In this document: positions 2,900-13,432 of the stretch, piece by piece
How positions within the stretch are numbered: the stretch's first letter is position 1
Layout of the letters: every line of letters starts with the position of its first letter
NCBI GenBank assembly: GCA_017538685.1
Contig: JAFYIK010000157.1
Location: forward strand, 1 to 13,624
DNA length: 13,624 nt
Reading direction: 5' to 3'
Source: Bacteroidales bacterium
GTDB lineage: Bacteria; Bacteroidota; Bacteroidia; Bacteroidales; UBA932
Notes under the pieces: model-generated
Databases searched by the model: none
What the model was told of the DNA's origin: nothing
Seen by the model: the letters and a program-made list of their open reading frames with translations, nothing else
Translations under genes and position numbers: made by a program

Positions 2900-3937
2900 A
2901 TGAAGACAGAAGACATACAGCAGGTGATTTCGGAGCTGCAGGCTCTGAAGTGTGAGACTCTCAAGGATGTTGAAGAAGCCAGGGTGCATTTCCTCGGAAA
3001 GAAAGGCTTGATTACGGCCCTCTTCGATGAGTTCCGTACCGTGGACAGGGCCCAGAAGGCGGAGTTCGGCCGCCCGCTCAACGAGCTGAAGCAGCTCGCC
3101 ATCGCGAAGGTCGAGGAGCTCCGCGACGCGCTCGCGTCGTCCGAGGCCGCTTCCGGCCCTCGAGAGGATCTCTCGATGCCCGGCGACGCCCTCTCCCTGG
3201 GCTCGCGCCACCCCGTGAGCATAGTCCGCAAGGAGATCGTGGACATCTTCCGCAAGTTCGGTTACGATGTGGCCGAGGGTCCGGAGATCGAGGACGACTA
3301 CCACGTCTTCGAGGCTCTGAACTTCCCTCCGAATCATCCCGCCCGCGATATGCAGGACACCTTCTTCGTGTCCGCAGGGCATCTCAACCCGCTGCTTCTG
3401 CGCACTCACACCTCTTCCGTGCAGGTACGCGCGATGGAGAAAATGCCTCTCCCGATCCGCGTAGTCTGCCCCGGCCGCGTGTTCCGCAATGAAGCCATCA
3501 GCGCCCGCGCGCACTGCATCTTCCATCAGATCGAGGGCCTCTATATCGACGAAAACGTGACCTTCGCAGACCTCAAGCAGGCGATTCTCCTGTTTGCCCG
3601 CGAGATGTTCGGCCCGGAGACTCAGATCCGTATGCGCCCTTCGTACTTTCCCTTCACCGAGCCTTCTGCCGAGGTGGACGTCAGCTGCAACATTTGCCAC
3701 GGCAAAGGCTGCAACATCTGCAAGGGAACCGGCTGGCTGGAGATCCTCGGCTGCGGTATGGTGGACCCCAACGTGCTCAAGGCGTCCGGCATCGACCCGG
3801 ATAAATACAGCGGATTCGCTTTCGGTATGGGCCTCGAGCGAATCGCTATGCTGAAGTGGCAGGTCAACGACCTCCGCCACTATTTCGAGAATGATCTGCG
3901 CTTCCTACGCGAGTTCTCTACCGCTGTGGAAGTGTAA
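2900..3937 (+). CDS. pheS: Phenylalanyl-tRNA synthetase alpha subunit
   Basis: Catalytic alpha subunit (345 residues) of the cytoplasmic alpha2-beta2 enzyme that charges tRNA-Phe with phenylalanine (EC 6.1.1.20). Residues 1-85 form the N-terminal helical arm. The class II catalytic core follows: HPVSIVRKEIVDIF (104-117) opens it, motif 2 is FRNEAISARAHCIFHQIEG (195-213), and motif 3 is GFAFGMGLERIAML (305-318). Ala307 sits where the E. coli enzyme has the Ala that limits substrate side-chain size. Four cysteines at 263, 266, 271 and 274 form a CxxC-x4-CxxC knuckle, also found in PheS of many Firmicutes and Bacteroidota. Length is normal (E. coli 327). pheT is not adjacent. The gene lies 2 bp after the small secreted protein gene. 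Its last 20 bp overlap, tail to tail, the end of the GH26 gene. Confidence 0.97.
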   Translation: MKTEDIQQVISELQALKCETLKDVEEARVHFLGKKGLITALFDEFRTVDRAQKAEFGRPLNELKQLAIAKVEELRDALASSEAASGPREDLSMPGDALSLGSRHPVSIVRKEIVDIFRKFGYDVAEGPEIEDDYHVFEALNFPPNHPARDMQDTFFVSAGHLNPLLLRTHTSSVQVRAMEKMPLPIRVVCPGRVFRNEAISARAHCIFHQIEGLYIDENVTFADLKQAILLFAREMFGPETQIRMRPSYFPFTEPSAEVDVSCNICHGKGCNICKGTGWLEILGCGMVDPNVLKASGIDPDKYSGFAFGMGLERIAMLKWQVNDLRHYFENDLRFLREFSTAVEV

Positions 3938-6047
3938 TCACCCAATCGGAATTCATCCAAGAATTGAGGAAGGCTGCATCGTTGTACGGCGCGGCCATAA
4001 ACTCGCCGTACCACGGCATAGCCCACAGCCACATTGCACCGTCGTGGGCGCAGGCCTCCGCCTGAGGGATGGCGCCGCACTCGCCCAGGGCCAGCATCTT
4101 CTTGTTTGAAATCGAGAGAAGTAAATCCCAGGCATCCTTGCCGGAAGTGTGGTAGATGTTCTCGCTCTGGGGATACCAGTCATAGGCAATGATATCCACA
4201 TAATTGTCGCCGGGATACCAGTCGGCATCGCCGAGGCAGGAGGTCCAAACCCAGATGAGGTTGTGGATTCCGGCTGCGCCCAAATAGTCGAACACGTGCT
4301 TCCAGAGGGCGACATAATCGTCCGCGGTGCCTGCGCCCCACCAGAACCAGCCGCCGGACGCTTCGTGGAGAGGGCGGAAGAGCACTGGGATGTTCTGGTC
4401 CTGAAGGAGTTTCAGATAAGCCGCTAGTTTCTCCAGGTCGGCCTCCATCACTTCATTCTGCCAGGTGCCTTCCTTGAGGGCCTCGCCCGGAGTGAACTGG
4501 TTGTCTTTAGAGTAGAAACTAAGCTCCGGCTCATCGGTTGTGCGGATAATGCGTTTCTTCAATTCCGTTTTGCCGACGGGAGTCTTTATCACCACTGATT
4601 TGAGAGTGAAGGTGTTGCCGCCGATAATAAGGCCATACTCCAGCATACTTGCAAGGGAGAGGTCGTCTACCTCCACGGTGACCTTGCTGTTTCCTGCCGG
4701 GATGCTGAAAGCGTTGTAGTTGATTCCTGCCCTGTTGGCCAGCCCGACCCAACCGTCGTGATTCTCCAGAAGGGACATCTGTGAGCCTGCGGGCGCGTCC
4801 TCGTAGTTGATCACCACCTGGCAGTTCTCCTTCAAGGTCAGGAAGTGCAGGGAGTCGAGATACACGGCCTGTCCCCACATAACCACAGCCCCTTCATCAT
4901 AGATGACCTTTTCATCATAATCCAAGGGATAGTTGAGGCCGATAGCTCTGTAGGTGAGATAACGTCCGGTCATCACGAGGCCGTGCAGGCTCAGTTCGGC
5001 GAGCATTTTCTCGTCTAGTATCACCGAGTACTTGCCCTCGCCCGGCTGGATGTCTACGTATGTGTAGTCCACGTTGTCTGCGCTCACCAGCCCGGGCCAA
5101 TTCTCCGAATTCACTTTCAGGGAAAGCATAGGGTTATAGTCGCCCACGTGCGCGTCTTTGTAGTAGACGTTCATCTTGGTGCCGGGAGCAAGGCCTTCGA
5201 ACGCGGAACTGTCCACGATCGCCCAGTTGTCCCACACGCCGATGGTCGCGTCCGGGAAGTCGACCACTATGTCGTCCGGGAACTCGGAAGTGACTGGACC
5301 GGGATCGCCGGATCCGTCGCTGGTGGGCACTGCCCAGTGCCAGCCTGCCGCCACTATTCCGCCTTTGTCGCTCCAACCCTTGACGGGCGAGATGTCGCCA
5401 TAGTCAATCCAGTCGGCGGGGCTGGCGGCGAGGTGGATGTAGTCAAAGGCGTTGATGGCCGGATACTTACCCGCGACGCTCTTGATCGCCTCGGCGTTGG
5501 CCGTGTTCCAGCTCACCTCCGCCATAGCGGCGGTGTAGATCTTCGAGCCGAAGTCGGCCTTAAGCTGTCCGTAGAGGGCTTTCGCCTCGGCGGTGGCTGA
5601 CGGGTCCACCGGGCTGTCGGCAAGCGCAAAGGCACCCGCGTTGAAGTTGTTCAGGCTGACGGTCGTGAACGTGAGCGTCAGGTCCTCGGCGTAGTTGCCG
5701 TCCGCGTCCTTGACCGAAGGTTTGAGCACCTTAACTGTGTACTGCGTGCCGCTCTGCAGGGTCACGGGGATGTAGAGGACGTTCTCCACCACGTAAATGG
5801 CTTCGTCGTAGTATTCGCCGTTCACGCTGATGGTGGGGTTCGGGGCCAGGCTGATAGGTTTGTCGTAGTTTATAACTATCTCGTTAATGAGTTCCACGCC
5901 GGTCGCGTTTGCAGCCGGCACCGTGCTCACCACTTTCGGCGCTTCGGTGGGTTCGGGCTTGACATCGTCCGGTTCTTTGGGCTCAACCTCAGGTGTGCAG
6001 GCGAACGCCAGAAGCAGAATGCTTAGACAGAATAAAAACTTTTTCAT
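3918..6047 (-). CDS. GH26 lipoprotein, likely endo-beta-1,4-mannanase with split barrel
   Basis: A 709-residue surface lipoprotein expected to cut beta-1,4-mannan or glucomannan chains internally. Residues 1-16 are a lipoprotein signal with Cys17 as lipid anchor, followed by an acidic, Pro-rich stretch (to about 37) resembling the Bacteroidota surface-export signal. Residues 38-129 look like an SbsA/Big_5 Ig-like domain. The GH26 barrel starts near 143 and includes FDYIHL and WHW (236-238). It is then interrupted by about 265 residues (245-508) holding two similar beta-rich modules. It resumes with the catalytic acid/base motif RPLHEASGGWFWWG (Glu562), YDWYPQ (622-627) and the nucleophile in ALGECG (Glu656). 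The glutamates are 94 apart, compatible with GH26. It is the last gene of the PUL operon, 1 bp after the preceding stop. Mannanase is the commonest GH26 activity, but lichenase or xylanase members exist, so the substrate is inferred. Confidence 0.93.
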   Translation of the reverse strand: MKKFLFCLSILLLAFACTPEVEPKEPDDVKPEPTEAPKVVSTVPAANATGVELINEIVINYDKPISLAPNPTISVNGEYYDEAIYVVENVLYIPVTLQSGTQYTVKVLKPSVKDADGNYAEDLTLTFTTVSLNNFNAGAFALADSPVDPSATAEAKALYGQLKADFGSKIYTAAMAEVSWNTANAEAIKSVAGKYPAINAFDYIHLAASPADWIDYGDISPVKGWSDKGGIVAAGWHWAVPTSDGSGDPGPVTSEFPDDIVVDFPDATIGVWDNWAIVDSSAFEGLAPGTKMNVYYKDAHVGDYNPMLSLKVNSENWPGLVSADNVDYTYVDIQPGEGKYSVILDEKMLAELSLHGLVMTGRYLTYRAIGLNYPLDYDEKVIYDEGAVVMWGQAVYLDSLHFLTLKENCQVVINYEDAPAGSQMSLLENHDGWVGLANRAGINYNAFSIPAGNSKVTVEVDDLSLASMLEYGLIIGGNTFTLKSVVIKTPVGKTELKKRIIRTTDEPELSFYSKDNQFTPGEALKEGTWQNEVMEADLEKLAAYLKLLQDQNIPVLFRPLHEASGGWFWWGAGTADDYVALWKHVFDYLGAAGIHNLIWVWTSCLGDADWYPGDNYVDIIAYDWYPQSENIYHTSGKDAWDLLLSISNKKMLALGECGAIPQAEACAHDGAMWLWAMPWYGEFMAAPYNDAAFLNSWMNSDWVITLPQR
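4524..5315 (-). repeat. Tandem beta-sandwich-like modules inserted in the GH26 barrel
   Basis: This segment encodes residues about 245-508 of the GH26 protein. Two modules, residues about 270-373 and 389-488, align with each other. Trp272 matches Trp391, the DS at 279-280 matches 398-399, NWPGL (Trp317) matches GWVGL (Trp433), and HGLVMTG (355-361) matches YGLIIGG (471-477). The offset is 119 and then 116 residues throughout. The alternating beta pattern and conserved Trp suggest tandem carbohydrate-binding modules, but I cannot assign a CBM family from the sequence alone. Confidence 0.75.
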
Positions 6048-6048
6048 A

Positions 6049-7221
6049 TCAATAATTTTCAGGTTCTATACGGAAATTGGCCACGGCGAAGTCCACGTCC
6101 CAGTCGGTGGGCGGCTGGATGGTGAAAGCAAAGTCGAGATAATCCCCTTGCGGAGGCAGTTCGGAAGCCACCTGTGACAGGGGGAAGGAGAGAGTGACCC
6201 ATTCTCCTCCGGTGTTGAAAGCGGTGCCGCCGAGGTCCAGGGCCACGTTAGTCTTCAGCTCGATCTGCACCAGCAGACCCTGGTTGCCGGCGGCGTTGTA
6301 GGCCGGCAGCGGCTTGGCCGGGTTGGTCCAGAGCTCGAACTTGAATATCCAGGAGGTCCAGTCCTCGGGCACTTCGTAGTTCCAGTCGTCGCCCATTCCG
6401 AGCGAATTCCAGGTCCAGCCGGAGTACGTGTTGTTGAAACGAAGGAACTTGTATCCCGGCGATTCAGGGTCGCCTTCGCCCGTCCCGTCCGTCAGGATGG
6501 TGGAGGCGAGGGCGGGGCTCCAGAAGCCGGTGGTCGCGAAATTGCCGAAGAACAAGTGGGAAGTGTCCCTGAAAGGAATGTTCTTCGTCTGCGGACCGAG
6601 CTTGATGTCGTTCCACTTGAAGGTTATGAGCGTCTGGTCCGGAGTTCCCTCGGGGATGACTATGTAGAGGCCATTCTGGTCGATGGACGAGACCTCCACG
6701 GGGTCGCCGTAGATGGTGATGGATGCTCCTGAACCCTCACGCCCGAAGCCGTAGAGGTCGAAATAGTCGCCCGCCACCTTCACCGTGCTGCCGGCGTGGG
6801 CGAATTCGTTGGCGAGGCCGGTCAGAACAAGCTGGGGAACGCTTATCTCGAAGTCGATGGACACGCTTCCCTGCGCTGTCCTGTAGACCAGGCTGTTGCT
6901 CATCACGTCCGGCATCACCCTGGGAATCAGGATATAGCTGTTTTCGTTCTCGCAGTAGCATTTGTCGAGCTCCGCATCTATCCCGTTGAAGCTCACGCTC
7001 AGCGGATTCGCGAGGTTCTTGCCGACTATGTGGATGAACTGCGCAAGGGCGCCCTCCGTCAGAGGGGTCTCCATCTCACCGTCGTGGATGTCGTACACCG
7101 CTTCGATGACGGGAGCGCCGTCGTTGGTAAAACGGTCGGGATAATCCGTCTTGTAGGTCACTATGTCGTTGCACGCGGCGGCAAGGACGCAGACCGAAAG
7201 CATTATAAGTAACTTTTTCAT
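6049..7221 (-). CDS. IPT-domain surface glycan-binding lipoprotein (SGBP-B type)
   Basis: A 390-residue non-catalytic surface lipoprotein thought to hold the target glycan next to the SusC/D importer. I chose the ATG at 7221 over the in-frame ATG at 7254. The downstream start gives a clean lipoprotein signal (MKKLLIMLSVCVLAAAC, anchor Cys17 followed by Asn-Asp) and does not overlap susD, leaving a 7-bp gap. Residues about 37-128 and 129-208 resemble tandem IPT/TIG immunoglobulin-like folds. Residues about 217-390 form a C-terminal beta-sandwich rich in Trp/Tyr (TTGFWSPALAS, YSGWTWNSLG, DWTSWIFKFELW), resembling the SGBP-B ligand-binding domain known from xyloglucan loci (PF18329 type). The position between susD and the hydrolase is the usual one for this class. 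Ligand is inferred to be the GH26 substrate. Confidence 0.85.
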   Translation of the reverse strand: MKKLLIMLSVCVLAAACNDIVTYKTDYPDRFTNDGAPVIEAVYDIHDGEMETPLTEGALAQFIHIVGKNLANPLSVSFNGIDAELDKCYCENENSYILIPRVMPDVMSNSLVYRTAQGSVSIDFEISVPQLVLTGLANEFAHAGSTVKVAGDYFDLYGFGREGSGASITIYGDPVEVSSIDQNGLYIVIPEGTPDQTLITFKWNDIKLGPQTKNIPFRDTSHLFFGNFATTGFWSPALASTILTDGTGEGDPESPGYKFLRFNNTYSGWTWNSLGMGDDWNYEVPEDWTSWIFKFELWTNPAKPLPAYNAAGNQGLLVQIELKTNVALDLGGTAFNTGGEWVTLSFPLSQVASELPPQGDYLDFAFTIQPPTDWDVDFAVANFRIEPENY

Positions 7222-7228
7222 CGCTGCG

Positions 7229-8923
7229 TTAATTCCATCCGGGGTTGTTTTCATTGATCTGGGTGTTGGAGTTAATCTCCTCCTGAGGGATAGGGAACAG
7301 CAGATGCTTGCCGGTGCGCTTCTTGTTCACGCCCGAGTCGTCGATGCTCACGGCGTTCATAGCATCTATGTAGATACCCCAGCGGATGAGGTCCCAGCGG
7401 CGGTCGCCCTCGCAGGCAAGCTCTTTCGCGCGCTCCTCGAGGATGGCGCTGCGCATAGCGTCCCTGCCCGGCACCGCCGCCATCTGCACGGCGTTCGAGC
7501 GCTTGCGTATCTTGTTGAGGCAGAGCATCGCTTCGTCGCCGTGGCCCAGCTCGTTCTGGGCTTCGGCATAGATCAGCATCACGTCCGCGTAGCGCAGGAA
7601 CGGGTAGGCCGAGTCGGAGTTCTCCGCCGTGCGGTCAGTGACGTCGTCGTACTTCATCGTGAAGGCGAGGGTGTAGCTGTTGTGTGTGTACTGGTAGGTG
7701 TTTCCGTCCGCAAGGCCCGCATACTTGTCTTTGTCGGACTCGGGGTAGTAGTAGTACCCGTTGTAGTCCGCCTGGAACGACTGCTGCCAGAGGTGGCGTA
7801 CGCCGTTCGTGATGCGGTAATCTCCGTCGTCGAACAAGCGGTACCAGTTGTAGGTGTTGCCCAGCCACTGCCCGGTGGTCACCTTGTTGCTGGTGGCGCT
7901 GGCGAACACTCCGCTGTAGTAAACGTGCACCTGGGTGCGGAAGACCATCTCGCCGCTGAGTGACTGCACGCTGAACAGGAACTCGGACGCGTCGCGGTTA
8001 GAGGCCTTCCAGAGCTTGTCGTAGTCGGAGAGCTCCACCGTTCCGTACTCGCCGTCAATAACCTTCTTCGCCCATTCGGAGGCCTTGGCGTACAAAGCCG
8101 CGGAATCCATATTGTCGTAGCCTGCGACCGCTTCCTTATAGAAGATGTTGGTCATCAGCGGGCTGTATTTGTAGACCGTCTGGCCGAACTCCACGTCGGA
8201 GTAGACCGCGCTTATGCCGTTGCCCGTGCGGACGGTGATCGGCGTGCCTTCCGGCATAGCGGCCGAGGCCATAGTCGCATAGACCTTCGCGAGAAGGCCG
8301 GCGGCGCTGGCAGCGCACACGTGGCCGGGGGAGCGGCGCGGATCTCCGCTCTTGTACATCATCGACGCCGCATCTTCGAGCAGCCCGATTATATGGTCAT
8401 AGACCACCTCCACGCTGTCGCGCGGGCTGGAATACGAGCCGCCGTCCAGCACGTCCTTCTTGATGCACGGCACAGGGCCGAACGCGCGGACGAGGAGGAA
8501 GTAGGCGAACGCTTCGTGGAAGTAGAGCTCGCCGATGGCGTTGTTCTTATATGCATCGCTGACATTCTGCATTTTCGCTATCTGCCTTTCGGCGAGATTG
8601 GCGTCCATTATCAGGTTGTAGCAGCATTTCCACATTCCGGGGACCATTTCGGCGGCCTGGAAATTACCGGCGCCCATAGTGCCGAGGAACCAGTCCGGGC
8701 CGGAGATGTAGTCGCAGTCCAGTTCGAGCACGAACGGGAACCACGCCCAGCGGAACATATCATCCAGGTAGTTGGCATACACGCCGCTCACCCACACGTC
8801 CACTCCCCCTTCGGAGTCCTCGATCTGCTCTGGTCCTATGAAGGATGAAGGCTTCTCGGCGAGCCAGTCGTTGCAGGAAGTCAAGAGAACCGCAGTGATT
8901 AGTATGATGATTATTCTTTTCAT
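7229..8923 (-). CDS. susD: SusD/RagB-family glycan-binding lipoprotein
   Basis: A 564-residue outer-membrane lipoprotein that acts as the lid and glycan-binding partner of the SusC barrel. The signal is MKRIIIILITAVLLTSC with anchor Cys17, followed by NDWLAEKPSS, a very typical start of a mature SusD protein. The N-terminal half has the tetratricopeptide-like helices (around EDAASMMYKSG and LLAKVYATMA). The C-terminal RagB/SusD region is clear: FLRYADVMLIYAEAQNELG (about 442-460), LNKIRKRSNAV, ILEERAKELACEGDRRWDLI (about 493-513), and the closing FPIPQEEINSNTQINENNPG. The gene starts 1 bp after the susC stop, and the two products are expected to form a complex. The symbol denotes the family only; the substrate is not starch and cannot be read from this sequence. 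Confidence 0.96.
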   Translation of the reverse strand: MKRIIIILITAVLLTSCNDWLAEKPSSFIGPEQIEDSEGGVDVWVSGVYANYLDDMFRWAWFPFVLELDCDYISGPDWFLGTMGAGNFQAAEMVPGMWKCCYNLIMDANLAERQIAKMQNVSDAYKNNAIGELYFHEAFAYFLLVRAFGPVPCIKKDVLDGGSYSSPRDSVEVVYDHIIGLLEDAASMMYKSGDPRRSPGHVCAASAAGLLAKVYATMASAAMPEGTPITVRTGNGISAVYSDVEFGQTVYKYSPLMTNIFYKEAVAGYDNMDSAALYAKASEWAKKVIDGEYGTVELSDYDKLWKASNRDASEFLFSVQSLSGEMVFRTQVHVYYSGVFASATSNKVTTGQWLGNTYNWYRLFDDGDYRITNGVRHLWQQSFQADYNGYYYYPESDKDKYAGLADGNTYQYTHNSYTLAFTMKYDDVTDRTAENSDSAYPFLRYADVMLIYAEAQNELGHGDEAMLCLNKIRKRSNAVQMAAVPGRDAMRSAILEERAKELACEGDRRWDLIRWGIYIDAMNAVSIDDSGVNKKRTGKHLLFPIPQEEINSNTQINENNPGWN

Positions 8924-8924
8924 A

Positions 8925-11900
8925 TCAGAAGGTGCAACTGATTCCTATTGCGAAGGTTCTTGATGCCGGATAAGAGTAGACGTCCACACCGCGGCGGGAT
9001 GAATCCGTGCCGAATGCGTTCACGTCGGGGTCGTAGCCTGAGTACTTTGTGAGAGTAAGCAGGTTGTTTGCGGAGAGGGTAAGGAGAATCTGTTCCACTC
9101 CCTTGAAAGGAGCGGGTATCCTCCACGATAAGTCGAGGCTCTTAAGCTTCACATAGCTGCCATCCTCGATATAGCGGTTGCTGAGCAGGAAGTTGCGGGT
9201 GTAGCCGGCCGTGGCCTTGGGCCATTTGGCGTTTTCCTTGTTTTCGGGCGTCCACCTCGTGTCGTAGGCGTCCCTGGTGATGTTTCCGATATTGCCCAGC
9301 TTGATGTCCCACAACGTTCCGTTGAAGATATCGTTGCCCTGGCAGCCCTGGATGAGGAAGCTCAGGGAGAGGTTCTTGTAGGAGATGCTGTTCGTAATGC
9401 CGAAGGTGTAGTCGGGGTTGGCGTCGCCTATCACGGCGCGGTCGGAGGTGGTGATGCTGCCGTCGCCGTCGAGGTCGCGGTACTTGATTTCACCTATCTT
9501 CGAGAGCACCACGGCGGCGGTGGCGTCCCTGTACTGCGGGTCCGCGCGCACTTCCGCTTCGTTGTCGTAGAAACCGTCTTCCACATAGCCGAACATCGCT
9601 CCGATGGGCAGGCCGTTGCGCTGGAGGAAAACGTCGTCGGCGGCGTACCAGAGGCTGTTCGCGAACTGGTCGCCGCTGAGTCCGCCGATCACGTTGCGGT
9701 TGAAGGAGATATTCGCATCCACGGTCCAGTTCCAGTTTCGCTTGGAGACCGCGACCGCGCGGGCGGTGAGTTCGAGGCCGGTGTTCGTGACGTTGCCGCT
9801 GTTCACCAGCATATTCGAGAAGCCGGTGGACGGCGGAATCTGGATTTCCTGCAACAGGTCGCGGGTGACCTTCTTATAATAGTCCACGGTGAAGGTGAAG
9901 CGGTCGCCGGCGAAGCCAAGATCGACGCCGGCGTTCACCTGCGAGGTCGTCTCCCACTTGATGTCCGAGGACACTGGGCCGCGCCAACTCGTTAGAGCGG
10001 AGCCGGAGGTCATCGAGCCGCCGAAGGGGTAGTTGGCGGTGCTGAGCATCGCGATCGAGCGGTAGGAGCCTATGCCCTGGTTGCCTGTTTCGCCGTAGCT
10101 CACCCTGAATTTAAGGTTGCTGAAAACTCCAAGGTCTTTTATGAACTGCTCTTCTGAGGCCTTCCAGGCGAGGGCGCCGGAAAGGAAGGTCGCCCATTTG
10201 TTGCCCACGGCGAATTTCGACGAACCGTCCGTACGCACGCTCGCGGTGAGCAGGTACTTGCCCATCAGGGTGTAGTTCACTCGCCCGAGGAAGGAGGCCA
10301 GGGTCATATAGCCGGTGTCGCTTGTGATGGTGGCTTTGTCCAGGGCGCGCGAAAGGTCGTTGTCCTTGGTCTGGTCGTCGGGGAAGTTCATCAGGTTCAT
10401 CGTGTATTGCTTCCACTCGCTTCTTTCAGCGGTGAAACCTGCGACTGCGTTTATGCTGTGGATGTCCGCAAGGATCTGGTCGTAGGTGAAGAGCGATTCG
10501 CTGGTGAGGCTGCTCCAGGTGCTGCCGCTTCGGCTGGCCTGGCCGTTGCGCGGTGCGCGGCCTTCGTAGGAGTGGCGGTCGTAGAAGGCGCCGCGCTCCT
10601 GGTCGCTGTAGCCCAGTCCGAGGTTCTGCCTGAAGCGAAGGGTGGGGAGTATGCGGATTTCGAGGTATGAACTGTCGTAAAAGTTGATTCCGGAGAGGTG
10701 GTCCTTGGTGTTTTTCACGTAGGCCGCCGGGTTGGCCGCGAGCCAGTTGAGGTCGTCGGCGGTGGAGGTGTCCATATCTGCGCCATAGACGGGAGGGAAG
10801 ACTATCGCAGAACGGATGATTCCGGTGTTGTAGGAGAGGGTGTTCGCGAAGTCGGTCTCGGATTTGGTGAAGCTGAGGTTGGTGCCGATTTCCATCCAGC
10901 CTGTGACGTGTTTGCCTATGCTGGCGCGCAGCGAATAGCGCTCGTAGCCGGAGTTGCGAATGATGCCGTCCTGCCTGGCGTAGTTGCCGGAGTAGGCGTA
11001 GAAGCCTTTGTCGTTGCCGCCGCTCACGCTGAGGTTGTAGTCGGTGGAGAAGGAGGTGCGGAAGATTTCTTTCTGCCAGTCGGAGGCGCCGATTTCGAAG
11101 GAGTTGCCGTATTCGTCGTAGTAGAAGCCGGGGGTCTTGAAGTCTTCAGGCGCGGGGGAGTAGACGCCGGCCGCGTAGTTGGGGTGACCGTCGGCGAAGT
11201 TGGGATACGACCAGCGGCCGGCGTACTGGTAGGTGTCGTACATCGCGCCTTCGTAGTAGGTGCTGTTGTCGTACTGTTCGTTGATGTAGCTCGCGTAGGT
11301 GGCGGCGTCCAGCACGGGGATGATGCGGACCACGTTCGCCATAGAGGCGTTCACGCTCAGCTCCACCCTGGGTTTTTCGGTGCGCCCGCGCTTGGTGGTG
11401 ATTATCACCACGCCGTTGGCGCCTCGGGAGCCGTAGATGGCGGTGGCGGATGCGTCTTTGAGCACCTCCATACTCTCGATGTCGTGCGGGTTGATGAAGC
11501 TCAGCGGATTGGACGACTGCTCGGAGGTGAGGGCGGTGTTCGAGGGTGTGCTGCCCGTTTCGAGCGGAATCCCGTCCACGATGAACAGCGGCTGGGAGCT
11601 GGTGGTGAAGGAATTGGCTCCACGGACGAGGATGCTCATACCTCCGCCCGGGGCGCCGTCGCTCTGCTGGACCACCACGCCGGCGATCTTGCCCTGCATA
11701 CCGTGGGCGATGTCGATCGAGCCGCCCTTCATAAGGTCTTCGGATTTGAGCTGGCTGACTGCGCCGGAGAGGTCGCTTTTCCTGACGGTGCCGTAGCCGA
11801 TGACCACCACTTCATCCAGGTACTGAGTGTCTTCGTGAAGCACGACGTCGATCACGCTGCGGCCGCCCACCGGGATTTCCACGTTGGAATAGCCTATGGA

Positions 11901-12116
11901 GGAGAGGACCAGGATGGCGCCTTCTTTCACGTCTATGGCGTAGTGTCCGTCGAGGTCGGTGACGGCGCCGTTGTAGGTGCCCTTCTCCAGTACGCTGGCG
12001 CCGACGACTGGTTGCCCGGTGTTGTCGGTGACCGTGCCGTGGACGTTTCTGGTCTGTGCGAACAGTCCGGTTGCCACGGTCAGGGCCAGCAGGAAGGTTG
12101 CTAGTTTTAAGTTCAT
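8925..12116 (-). CDS. susC: SusC/RagA-family TonB-dependent outer-membrane transporter
   Basis: A 1063-residue outer-membrane transporter that imports oligosaccharides using TonB-ExbBD energy. Residues 1-20 are a signal peptide (cleavage after LFA before Gln21). Residues about 23-96 are the carboxypeptidase-regulatory-like domain (VHGTVTDNTGQPVVGASV). The SusC signature DEVVVIGYGT (101-110), which includes the TonB-box-like stretch, leads into the plug domain (about 110-240) with GVVVQQSDGAPGG, LFIVDGIPL and IESMEVLKDASATAIYGSRG. The rest is the 22-strand barrel, ending SRTFAIGISCTF with the usual C-terminal Phe. No extra N-terminal signalling (STN/DUF4974-interacting) domain is seen, so it does not look like an anti-sigma-linked transducer. 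The gene starts 2 bp after the stop of the DUF4434-like gene. The symbol denotes the family, not a starch substrate. Confidence 0.97.
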   Translation of the reverse strand: MNLKLATFLLALTVATGLFAQTRNVHGTVTDNTGQPVVGASVLEKGTYNGAVTDLDGHYAIDVKEGAILVLSSIGYSNVEIPVGGRSVIDVVLHEDTQYLDEVVVIGYGTVRKSDLSGAVSQLKSEDLMKGGSIDIAHGMQGKIAGVVVQQSDGAPGGGMSILVRGANSFTTSSQPLFIVDGIPLETGSTPSNTALTSEQSSNPLSFINPHDIESMEVLKDASATAIYGSRGANGVVIITTKRGRTEKPRVELSVNASMANVVRIIPVLDAATYASYINEQYDNSTYYEGAMYDTYQYAGRWSYPNFADGHPNYAAGVYSPAPEDFKTPGFYYDEYGNSFEIGASDWQKEIFRTSFSTDYNLSVSGGNDKGFYAYSGNYARQDGIIRNSGYERYSLRASIGKHVTGWMEIGTNLSFTKSETDFANTLSYNTGIIRSAIVFPPVYGADMDTSTADDLNWLAANPAAYVKNTKDHLSGINFYDSSYLEIRILPTLRFRQNLGLGYSDQERGAFYDRHSYEGRAPRNGQASRSGSTWSSLTSESLFTYDQILADIHSINAVAGFTAERSEWKQYTMNLMNFPDDQTKDNDLSRALDKATITSDTGYMTLASFLGRVNYTLMGKYLLTASVRTDGSSKFAVGNKWATFLSGALAWKASEEQFIKDLGVFSNLKFRVSYGETGNQGIGSYRSIAMLSTANYPFGGSMTSGSALTSWRGPVSSDIKWETTSQVNAGVDLGFAGDRFTFTVDYYKKVTRDLLQEIQIPPSTGFSNMLVNSGNVTNTGLELTARAVAVSKRNWNWTVDANISFNRNVIGGLSGDQFANSLWYAADDVFLQRNGLPIGAMFGYVEDGFYDNEAEVRADPQYRDATAAVVLSKIGEIKYRDLDGDGSITTSDRAVIGDANPDYTFGITNSISYKNLSLSFLIQGCQGNDIFNGTLWDIKLGNIGNITRDAYDTRWTPENKENAKWPKATAGYTRNFLLSNRYIEDGSYVKLKSLDLSWRIPAPFKGVEQILLTLSANNLLTLTKYSGYDPDVNAFGTDSSRRGVDVYSYPASRTFAIGISCTF

Positions 12117-12118
12117 TA

Positions 12119-13432
12119 TCAGAATGCGACCCTGTTGGACTCTTCTCCGAGATAGTTGTAGGTGGCGATCTGATACGTGTCGGCCGCCCTGCCGTTCTGG
12201 TCGAAGAAGGTGTTGGGGGTTAGAGTGGGTGTTATTTGCAGTTTAATGTAAAGTTCCGAGTTTTTGTAGATGGCGAAGCCGTCCGCGTTGTCTTTGGTGG
12301 GGAGGACCCACGTCAGGGAGACTCCGGTGCCCACTTCTTTGGTGGCGGAGCTCACGGCCTTGGGCACGGGGCAGGTCTCGAGCTGGCCGGTTTTCACGTA
12401 ATTCTTGTAGGCTTCGTGGTGATGACCGAGAACGTTGTTCGGGCTCTGGTAGTGAGGATAGGCGAAGCAAATGATCTTGCTGACGAATTTGTCCACGGCT
12501 TCCATCTGTTCGACTATGCGTCCCAGCGGAGCGCTTGCGAAATGACTGCCGTCCTTGAGGCTGAACTGCTCGAAGGTCTCCACGTTGCCCCATAGCTGGA
12601 GGCCCTGGACCAATGCGGTCGCTTCCTGGTACTGGTAGAACCAGCCTTTGACGTTCGCCACAGCCATCCTGGTTGCGCCCACGCAGTCTTGCGGTGAGAA
12701 TATGTCGCCTTCCCTGAAATGCATCTTGGGGAGGACTTCCTTCCAGAACTTGCCGTAGCTGGCTGCCGATCCCAGCGAAGGGTTGGCGAAGGGGCTGAAT
12801 ATAAGCGGAGTGTCTTCCGGTATGGCGTCCAGGATGACGTTGATTGCGTCTACGAAGAGTTGTTTGGCGTCGTCTGAGTTCCAGTTGAGGTTGTCGATTT
12901 CCCAGTCCCAGTACCAGCCGTATAGAGTGCCTTTATAGTCGTTCTGGAAGCGGTTGAGGATGCTCGCTATCACGGTTTTACCCTCTTCCATCCTGGCCAT
13001 AAGCCACGTCCGGTTGCGGCCCTGGCTCCACCAGTCGCTGTGGTAGTTGGGGCCTACGAAGATTTTTATGTCGTGTTTCTTCGCGCTCTTGAGGCATTTC
13101 CCCAGAGAAACAAGGTCTGCGTCGTTGCCCCCGTCTTTGATCGGGGTGTAAATCAGGTAAGTGATGCCGGCTTCTTTGAGGACATCCATTTCGGAGTCCC
13201 ACCTTGCGTCATCCCAGTAGACAGTGTACCAATGCTGGAGGAATGTGCCCTCGATGACAGGGAAAGTCTTGGTTGTCGTGGTGTCCGTGGGATTGGTATG
13301 GGTGGTGGTATCCGTCGGATTTGGCTTCGGATCGGGGTCAGGAGTCGGTCCCGGCTCCGGATTCTCGGGGCCGCAAGCCGCCGCCAAAACGGCAATCAGA
13401 GCTATTGCAGTTATTAATTTGAGTGTTTTCAT
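12119..13432 (-). CDS. DUF4434-like TIM-barrel lipoprotein, candidate glycoside hydrolase
   Basis: A 437-residue predicted surface lipoprotein (MKTLKLITAIALIAVLAAAC, anchor Cys20). Residues 21-57 are a Pro/Thr/Asp linker containing a 9-residue tandem repeat. Residues 58-330 match the look of DUF4434 (IEGTFLQHWY, WDSEMDVLKEAGITYLIY, GWYWDWEID). Eight strand-like segments can be placed in order: near 60, 92, 123, 170, 210, 244, 278 and 319. Glu178 falls at the end of strand 4 and Glu285 at the end of strand 7, the clan GH-A catalytic arrangement. Residues about 355-437 look like a fibronectin type III domain (SLTWVLPTKDNADGFAIYKN). It is the first gene of the PUL operon, 2 bp before susC. Enzymatic activity is my inference; a non-catalytic glycan-binding role is possible. 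The ATG at 13432 is supported by the signal peptide and an upstream TAnnTTTG element. Confidence 0.82.
   Translation of the reverse strand: MKTLKLITAIALIAVLAAACGPENPEPGPTPDPDPKPNPTDTTTHTNPTDTTTTKTFPVIEGTFLQHWYTVYWDDARWDSEMDVLKEAGITYLIYTPIKDGGNDADLVSLGKCLKSAKKHDIKIFVGPNYHSDWWSQGRNRTWLMARMEEGKTVIASILNRFQNDYKGTLYGWYWDWEIDNLNWNSDDAKQLFVDAINVILDAIPEDTPLIFSPFANPSLGSAASYGKFWKEVLPKMHFREGDIFSPQDCVGATRMAVANVKGWFYQYQEATALVQGLQLWGNVETFEQFSLKDGSHFASAPLGRIVEQMEAVDKFVSKIICFAYPHYQSPNNVLGHHHEAYKNYVKTGQLETCPVPKAVSSATKEVGTGVSLTWVLPTKDNADGFAIYKNSELYIKLQITPTLTPNTFFDQNGRAADTYQIATYNYLGEESNRVAF
13278..13324 (-). repeat. 27-bp tandem repeat encoding the Pro/Thr linker
   Basis: Two nearly identical units, 13278-13296 and 13305-13324, are offset by 27 bp and encode NPTDTTTHT and NPTDTTTTK in the lipoprotein linker of the DUF4434-like protein. 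The 27-bp unit keeps the reading frame, so unit gain or loss would change only linker length. Confidence 0.65.

Follow-up and report, generated by a model that had tools for sequence, protein, structure and literature searches.

Tandem CBM112-type modules inserted in the catalytic barrel of a predicted GH26 β-mannanase from a Bacteroidales PUL

Organization of the locus

The window, that is, the entire stretch of 13,624 nucleotides analyzed here (contig JAFYIK010000157.1 of a Bacteroidales bacterium; all positions refer to it), carries a PUL on its minus strand in the order DUF4434, SusC, SusD, SGBP and GH26, after which follows a convergent gene that we take to be pheS. The first PUL gene (12119..13432, minus strand) encodes a DUF4434 protein according to Pfam. 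It is followed by an ORF adjoining the SusD gene (8925..12116, minus strand), the product of which is presumably a SusC-like TonB-dependent transporter, by the gene for a SusD homologue recognized by Pfam (7229..8923, minus strand), and by the gene for a short SGBP of about 400 residues (6049..7254, minus strand), in which Pfam recognized IPT/TIG and SGBP_B_XBD domains and our profile detected no CBM112-like module. The last PUL gene (3918..6047, minus strand) specifies a predicted GH26 β-mannanase lipoprotein of 709 residues, the catalytic barrel of which is broken by two CBM112-type modules. In a locus from a red deer MAG (L002), the gene order of the window was repeated, including pheS, with 70% identity in the best segment. 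The 3′ ends of the GH26 gene and the convergent pheS gene overlap by 20 bases in both loci (3918-3937 in the window and 12123-12142 in L002).

The GH26 enzyme starts with a signal peptide (5997..6047, minus strand), the lipobox of which, read from the sequence by eye, ends in LAFAC17 and marks a lipoprotein that is probably exposed at the surface. A Big_5 Ig-like domain occupies residues 34-129 (5661..5948, minus strand; PF13205, E 1.8e-10). The catalytic domain belongs to GH26, as PF02156 matched in two stretches with 149.8 bits against a cut-off of 20.2 (E 1.4e-43; best stretch 528-704). Alignment and model assigned residues 150-244, including W213 and the WHW motif at 236-238, to the N-terminal part of the barrel (5316..5600, minus strand), and alignment with BoMan26B assigned residues 509-705 to its C-terminal part (3933..4523, minus strand). 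BoMan26B was the nearest solved chain by sequence (E 2.2e-69; query residues 150-260 and 514-682, flanking the insert on both sides) and also ranked first when the model of the whole enzyme was searched with Foldseek (E 1.4e-21). The acid/base Glu562 and the nucleophile Glu656 align with Glu-201 and Glu-291 of BoMan26B, respectively, and W213 aligns with Trp-112 of its −5 subsite. By family, the enzyme is predicted to be an endo-β-mannanase.

A tandem insert in the β3-α3 loop of the GH26 barrel

The two parts of the barrel are separated by an insert of residues 245-508 (4524..5315, minus strand), which the model, a comparison of loop lengths and the sequence place in the β3-α3 loop. The original prediction had the barrel split at exactly this position, between WHW 236-238 and a catalytic half with Glu562 and Glu656, and was correct on these points. 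Its claim that a compact GH26 enzyme needs only a short loop here was equally borne out, as WHW and the G[TSHN]W motif lie 291 residues apart in the window enzyme versus 30-40 residues in relatives without a module (22 of 40 rows, namely those in which the motif was found). In our own mapping on the alignment, the insert sits just before the positions of BoMan26B Tyr-148 and Lys-149.

Profile matches, a residue table and the model delimited two modules within the insert, module 1 comprising residues 258-374 with W272 and W317 (4926..5276, minus strand) and module 2 comprising residues 377-490 with W391 and W433 (4578..4919, minus strand). The modules are similar to each other, as had been noticed from the sequence at the outset: a two-sequence BLASTP gave 25% identity over 114 columns (E 1e-12), and the motif pairs W272/W391, DS279/DS398, W317/W433 and GLVMTG/GLIIGG recurred at offsets of 119, 119, 116 and 116. 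Structure prediction likewise returned two strand-rich modules located between β3 (231-237) and α3 (529-550), the latter followed by β4 (555-559), and both modules are predicted to be β-sandwich-like. When modelled alone, the insert reached a mean pLDDT of 91.6; in the full model, which had a pTM of 0.55, the geometry between the modules is unreliable. HMM searches of Pfam and NCBIfam named neither module, and Pfam gave no match for either at E values up to 10.

Assignment of the modules to CBM112

The original prediction had further supposed that the modules may form an unnamed CBM family and that no GH26 case had been described. Both suppositions failed: the family was named CBM112 in May 2026, and it was founded on single modules inside GH26 enzymes of Bacteroides cellulosilyticus and B. 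uniformis (PMC13357471). The proviso that both modules might match a well-described CBM family already known inside GH26 enzymes therefore applies in part, CBM112 being known there, in the available text, as a single module. According to that text, 61 of 82 members are internal to the GH26 barrel, and W257 and W301 of BcWH2 are conserved across the whole family. The founding modules bind mannan only, the ligand of the family being β-mannan of at least 4 residues; the W257A and W301A variants lose binding, and Y310A and H339A bind more weakly (PMC13357471). In BcWH2_GH26, the module comprises residues 239-355 and the directly following Ala359 occupies the position of BoMan26B Lys149 (PMC13357471), where the window insert also ends, which indicates the same insertion site. 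Removal of the internal CBM112 from BcWH2_GH26 left the kinetics and the activity on insoluble mannan unchanged, and the authors discuss a role in utilisome placement (PMC13357471). The 'two repeats' mentioned in the available text of this paper refer to a CE7 esterase, and one internal module is described.

To assess membership, we built a profile of 15 single-module relatives from which the window modules were excluded, the 15 having been delimited with a profile that contained them. In the full window protein this profile scored 24.3 and 34.1 bits, versus 11.2 bits for the best of 2140 matches on 2000 shuffled modules. The matches covered positions 36-109 and 38-113 of 114, the first third of the profile being unmatched in both modules. 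With a narrower profile of seven Bacteroides-type modules, isolated module 1 scored 10.1 bits against 9.9 for the best shuffle and was absent in the full protein; module 2 scored 18.0 bits in isolation and a modest 12.5 in the full protein. As the narrow profile does not lift module 1 above the noise, membership in CBM112 runs through intermediates. Both modules furthermore carry the Trp pair of the family (W272/W317 and W391/W433) and lie within a GH26 barrel, and by homology and residue positions both are CBM112-type. The originally proposed tandem duplication of a CBM inside the barrel loop is also supported. By fold, and weakly by sequence, CBM112-type modules look homologous to the C-terminal domain of the mixed-linkage glucan SGBP-B (6E57/6E9B), a term absent from the main text of PMC13357471.

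One of the single-module relatives, P0120 (B. uniformis according to its source label), carried all eight published BcWH2_GH26 contacts at a constant offset of +1, and its module was delimited to 244-352, next to 240-354 for the Bu_CBM construct (PMC13357471). A 12-position fingerprint of BcWH2_GH26 found no full match among the relatives, the best having 8 of 12 positions at one offset without the four barrel positions, and BcWH2_GH26 itself was thus not identified among them. Over 89 modules, the equivalent of W257 was conserved in 88 and that of W301 in all. The remaining contacts (Q262, Q293, S295, K297, Y310 and H339), which are specificity determinants rather than defining features, were incomplete in both window modules; Q262 and H339 vary in single-module members too. 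Module 1 keeps five of the eight founding contacts, including S295, K297 and Y310, and module 2 keeps four, including Q293 and S295. Loss of Q293 was confined to 4 of the 89 modules, namely slot 1 of the window enzyme, P0002, P0003 and L002; in module 1 the residue is M307, an assignment taken from an alignment that has an indel immediately ahead of this position. Replacement of Y310 by Ala was likewise limited to 4 of the 89, here slot 2 of these proteins, and all four of these slot-2 modules also have K297 replaced by Leu (A446 and L427 in module 2). Module 2 of P0011 shares the change of K297 to Leu and has lost the first Trp, all other window-lineage modules in the residue table keeping both; six further modules have Trp or Phe for Y310. 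The founding paper places Q293 at the end of the site and proposes that Y310 enforces mannose there, the exclusion of glucose by Y310 being speculation in its available text (PMC13357471). Given the complementary loss of contacts, different ligand preferences would be expected for the two modules. Module 2 may accept glucose better, i.e. glucomannan, and for either module binding could be weak or directed at another ligand.

Copy number and descent of the modules

Our set of relatives consisted of the best 120 of 3076 matches, mostly from metagenome assemblies, and with the window enzyme it amounted to 121 proteins. No module was found in 11 of these, one in 72, two in 31 and three in 7, counts that are biased to near relatives by this selection. 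Beyond the module-free loops given above, and likewise over the rows that contain the motif, the loop comprised 139-167 residues and in one case 211 with one module (19 of 23 rows measured), 279-308 with two modules (10 of 12) and 407-428 with three modules (6 of 6). The 784-residue P0021 was the only protein without the RPxHE motif among the 121 (best 120 of 3076 matches plus the window enzyme). It carries three CBM112-type modules with both Trp and lacks the equivalents of both catalytic Glu, H237 and W213. Judging from these residues, it may be an inactive enzyme that has been retained for binding; its C-terminus is short and it lies on a single 2.7-kb contig, making a decayed gene or a sequence error possible.

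The barrel tree was computed from 81 GH26 sequences, thinned from 166; P0021, which has no RPxHE motif, and L005, the contig of which ends in the gene, were excluded. The window enzyme fell in a group of 15, all with two or three modules (89/74, not starred). Two-module enzymes were also found elsewhere in this tree: P0038 was placed beside the one-module P0066 (100/100), and P0048 and P0053 (100/97) near the one-module P0071 and P0065. In the module tree, the two modules of P0048 were sisters (100/95) and those of P0038/P0040 close neighbours (99/80), and the two modules of P0053/P0076 fell in different clades. The scatter of two-module barrels and these placements indicate that tandem arrays arose more than once, through local duplication and perhaps also through capture. 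Within the window lineage, a slot-1 clade of 14 rows (99/94) was separate from a later-slot clade of 21 rows (97/94), both starred, and this split accordingly looks old. A module profile matched 12 of 399 genomes of one family at E 1e-14, none having two matches in an ORF of about 700 residues, and 12 of 299 genomes of the family of L002 at E 1e-5. Double matches in one long ORF were found among the latter in the genome of L002 itself (the GH26) and in G093 (748 residues). P0040, used as a query to find other tandem lineages for an independent comparison of SGBP types, matched none of the 399 genomes at E 1e-100 and none of 297 genomes at E 1e-80; as this search had no positive control, its negative result carries no weight.

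The persistence of the slot-1 and slot-2/3 clades across two- and three-module members bears on whether one module is a working CBM and the other a degenerate copy. The two slots have lost different contacts and P0011 module 2 its first Trp, as such decay would have it. Against this stand the persistent clades and the low dN/dS of both modules (0.17 and 0.22 between the window and L002, compared with 0.14 and 0.17 in the barrel parts, at a dS of 0.9-2.1 that is near saturation), and we consider a degenerate copy somewhat doubtful. The same low dN/dS, and the retention of both Trp in window-lineage modules other than P0011 module 2, argue against modules that are mainly spacers or docking surfaces placing the barrel in a SusC/SusD/SGBP complex, with at least one of the two binding sugar weakly or no longer. 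Moreover, P0021 retains three modules with both Trp and lacks the catalytic Glu, which suggests a value in binding itself. Spacing or docking would agree with the neutral CBM deletion and the utilisome placement discussed for BcWH2_GH26 (PMC13357471), with the loss of several contacts in both window modules, and with identities between the window enzyme and P0003-P0005 of 52-55% in module 1 and 60-64% in module 2 versus 78-82% in the barrel parts, a difference that cassette exchange can explain too. We regard it as unlikely.

Internal modules and the upstream SGBP

The SGBP genes were compared over 42 loci from one genome scan. In five of these, as in the window, the GH26 enzyme has two or three internal modules, and only a short SGBP without a CBM112-like module is encoded directly upstream. 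Among the other 37 loci, 29 have a long SGBP (an ORF of 645-1015 residues) bearing one or two CBM112-like modules and five (L009, L014, L036, L037, L038) a short module-free SGBP; the upstream gene of L018, L021 and L024 was not recognized and stands outside the SGBP classes. The SGBP-module profile was iterated on the same loci, and a profile of GH26 modules only finds 22 of the 29. The contrast holds in the 42-locus set but represents effectively one lineage, and the five loci with a short module-free SGBP have no internal module either.

Because tandem-insert PULs have no long SGBP with one or two C-terminal CBM112-like modules, the internal pair might be thought to have moved from the neighbouring SGBP into the GH26 enzyme. 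We rejected this origin as highly improbable, since all 33 modules of the tandem lineage united in one starred clade (100/99) of the module tree, which was placed on the same side as the single GH26 modules; 47 of 49 SGBP modules fell on the opposite side, together with four GH26 modules.

Long SGBPs ending in two CBM112-like modules were found directly upstream of the GH26 gene in 20 loci (L006, L007, L008, L010-L013, L020, L023, L025, L026, L029, L031-L034, L039-L042), most SGBP modules forming a clade apart from the GH26 modules. In five long SGBPs that were scanned, Pfam named TIG domains only. Three ORFs of about 484 residues (L036:16893-18347, L037:17007-18458, L038:17913-19364) contain three weak CBM112-like repeats each, and the L036 copy had no Pfam match. 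The L006 record is titled as a Staphylococcus sp. MAG (2.6-Mb contig), which appears to be a mistake, since its susD/SGBP/GH26 PUL is of the Bacteroidales type.

In L003, where the GH26 is likewise of the tandem type, the PUL goes on to encode DUF4434, the product of an unnamed ORF, GH5, GH26, GH130 and a SASA esterase, a set that fits mannan. DUF4434 is present in the tandem-insert PULs of the window and of four of the five loci (L001-L004), the contig of the fifth ending in the GH26 gene. No DUF4434 was found by phmmer in the other 37 loci, a search that misses distant members such as L003:112-1773, which is DUF4434 by Pfam. Possibly the DUF4434 protein is an unrecognized mannan-active enzyme.

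Mosaic pairs and probable exchange of the insert

Several pairs of relatives were closely similar outside the insert and dissimilar within it. P0010 with three modules and P0017 with two shared 97% identity ahead of the insert and 91% behind it, with best module identities of 46-48%, and P0013 (three modules) and P0018 (two modules) were 90% and 94% identical outside and 36-43% in the modules. P0011 was 93% and 84% identical outside the insert to both P0004 and L002, with 43-45% and 43-44% inside, respectively. In windows of 30 residues, P0017 and P0010 were 93-100% identical for starts 1-211, 19-67% for starts 241-526 and 83-100% from 541 onwards, so that the stretch of low identity corresponds to the insert plus some 30-40 residues after it. 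The reverse was also found: P0003 and P0005 were 76% and 82% identical outside and 92% and 93% inside, and the window enzyme and P0002 81% and 84% outside and 92% and 87% inside. At sites where the window enzyme differs from P0004, P0002 sided with the window enzyme 80:9 in the modules and 28:35 elsewhere (Fisher p 1.4e-9); the counts were 83:7 and 29:24 against P0003, and 83:8 and 33:32 against P0005.

The trees bore out this discordance. The modules of P0017 and P0018 belonged to a 17-row clade (98/96) with those of P0019, P0020, L001, L003, L004 and L005, whereas the barrel of P0017 grouped with P0010 (100/100) and that of P0018 with P0013 (100/98), a disagreement on starred branches. In AU tests of the backbone, for which the groups were picked after the trees had been seen, {P0003, P0004, P0005, L002} was rejected (p 0.015) and {window, P0002} was not (p 0.31), and the barrel alone therefore does not contradict the insert for the latter pair. 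Grouping of the P0002 barrel with P0004 was rejected (p 1e-4). For the position of the window's own barrel, the tree was too poorly resolved to decide on exchange. Exchange of the insert appears to explain the mosaics best. Assembly chimeras, or very uneven rates, would offer a different explanation, and chimeras are possible for P0010, on one 7.5-kb contig, and P0013, on two contigs of at most 6.1 kb, both having been compared as proteins. However, such artefacts sit badly with the starred conflict for P0017 and P0018, with a discordance that runs in both directions, and with the mosaic between P0011 (three contigs, the longest of 19.9 kb) and L002 (MAG contig of 35.6 kb), and we judge them quite improbable as a general account.

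Discussion

With a probability of roughly 0.7, we interpret the window gene as encoding a surface GH26 endo-β-mannanase of a mannan PUL, in which a tandem CBM112 pair in the β3-α3 loop would serve multivalent mannan capture, with diverged slots and an insert that was duplicated and exchanged as a cassette. The host would be an uncultured, probably rumen, member of the Bacteroidales, in which the lipoprotein would stand on the outer membrane with SusC/SusD, the CBM112 pair lying next to the cleft at its glycone end. The Trp pair of each module would grip a mannan chain, leading to multivalent capture near the active site, which would cut the captured chain for import by SusC/D. Most sister PULs have a second SGBP that carries CBM112-like modules, and in the window lineage the internal pair would take its place. 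The cassette would have expanded to two or three copies by duplication at its site and would have been passed between barrels. Family, insertion site, duplication, Trp pairs and PUL context follow from the computations; binding, specificity and exchange are here read from sequences, and the neutral CBM112 deletion in BcWH2_GH26 implies that a catalytic benefit of the insert cannot be assumed.

We lean, at slightly better than even odds, to a broader reading in which GH26 mannanases of Bacteroidales use loop 3 to dock exchangeable cassettes with one, two or three CBM112 modules. These cassettes would be duplicated at the site and swapped between barrels through recombination in conserved flanks, and in the window lineage the array would replace a separate SGBP. 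If so, the slots would diverge in their contacts and the enzyme would re-tune which mannans it grips with its active site untouched.

The CBM112 family and a single module inside GH26 are known already, and the founding paper leaves open why the CBM sits inside the barrel, its deletion being neutral (PMC13357471). Beyond its available text go the internal arrays of two or three modules, arisen more than once; the two old slots that lost different ligand contacts; the mosaic pairs with 90-97% identity outside and inserts below 50%, with three versus two modules, and their reverse; and the tandem-insert PULs without a separate SGBP carrying CBM112-like modules, in contrast to 29 of the 37 other loci. 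The words 'tandem' and 'recombination' are absent from the main text of PMC13357471, the tree of which could hold uncommented tandem GH26 enzymes, and 'CBM' and 'insert' are both absent from the available text on a Segatella copri glucomannan GH26 (PMC12704710). Our searches of the open-licence literature brought up neither tandem internal CBM112 modules nor the exchange of an internal CBM. The series from zero to three modules, the like barrels with unlike inserts and the PULs with either array or SGBP provide natural tests of the role of an internal CBM. Between about 110 and 400 additional residues are tolerated by the loop, and this may aid mannanase engineering.

A CBM within the catalytic domain is likewise found in SusG, a surface GH13 amylase with a single inserted CBM58; SusG differs from the window enzyme in its GH family, in having one CBM and in acting on starch. 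The C-terminal domain of the B. ovatus mixed-linkage glucan SGBP-B is part of a binding protein and binds mixed-linkage glucan, whereas the window modules lie inside an enzyme. GH10 and GH26 barrels both belong to clan GH-A. The analogy with GH10 xylanases drawn in the original prediction proved apt, as Xyn10C and Pm25, a termite GH10 with tandem CBM4, hold CBMs in the same β3/α3 loop; Pm25 shares with the window enzyme two related tandem CBMs at this site and a PUL position after susC-susD, and its CBMs act synergistically on insoluble substrate (PMC7848910). Xyn10C-like enzymes differ in GH family, CBM family and substrate (PMC7848910), and with a GH26 domain in place of a GH10 domain with CBM4, the window enzyme resembles this design without being a member. 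BoMan26B (6HF2/6HF4) has no CBM; where the insert would be, it has a short loop with Tyr-148 and Lys-149, which bind the galactosyl side group in subsite −4 (PMC6556568). The most similar systems are BcWH2_GH26 (BcellWH2_02025) and BuGH26 (BACUNI_00373), which share with the window enzyme the GH26 lipoprotein, the N-terminal Ig-like/β-sheet domain, the mannan PUL, the CBM112 insertion site and the essential Trp pair (PMC13357471). These enzymes have one module, whereas the window enzyme has two, and its relatives up to three, with other contacts diverged and with an assignment to CBM112 based on profile and residue positions.
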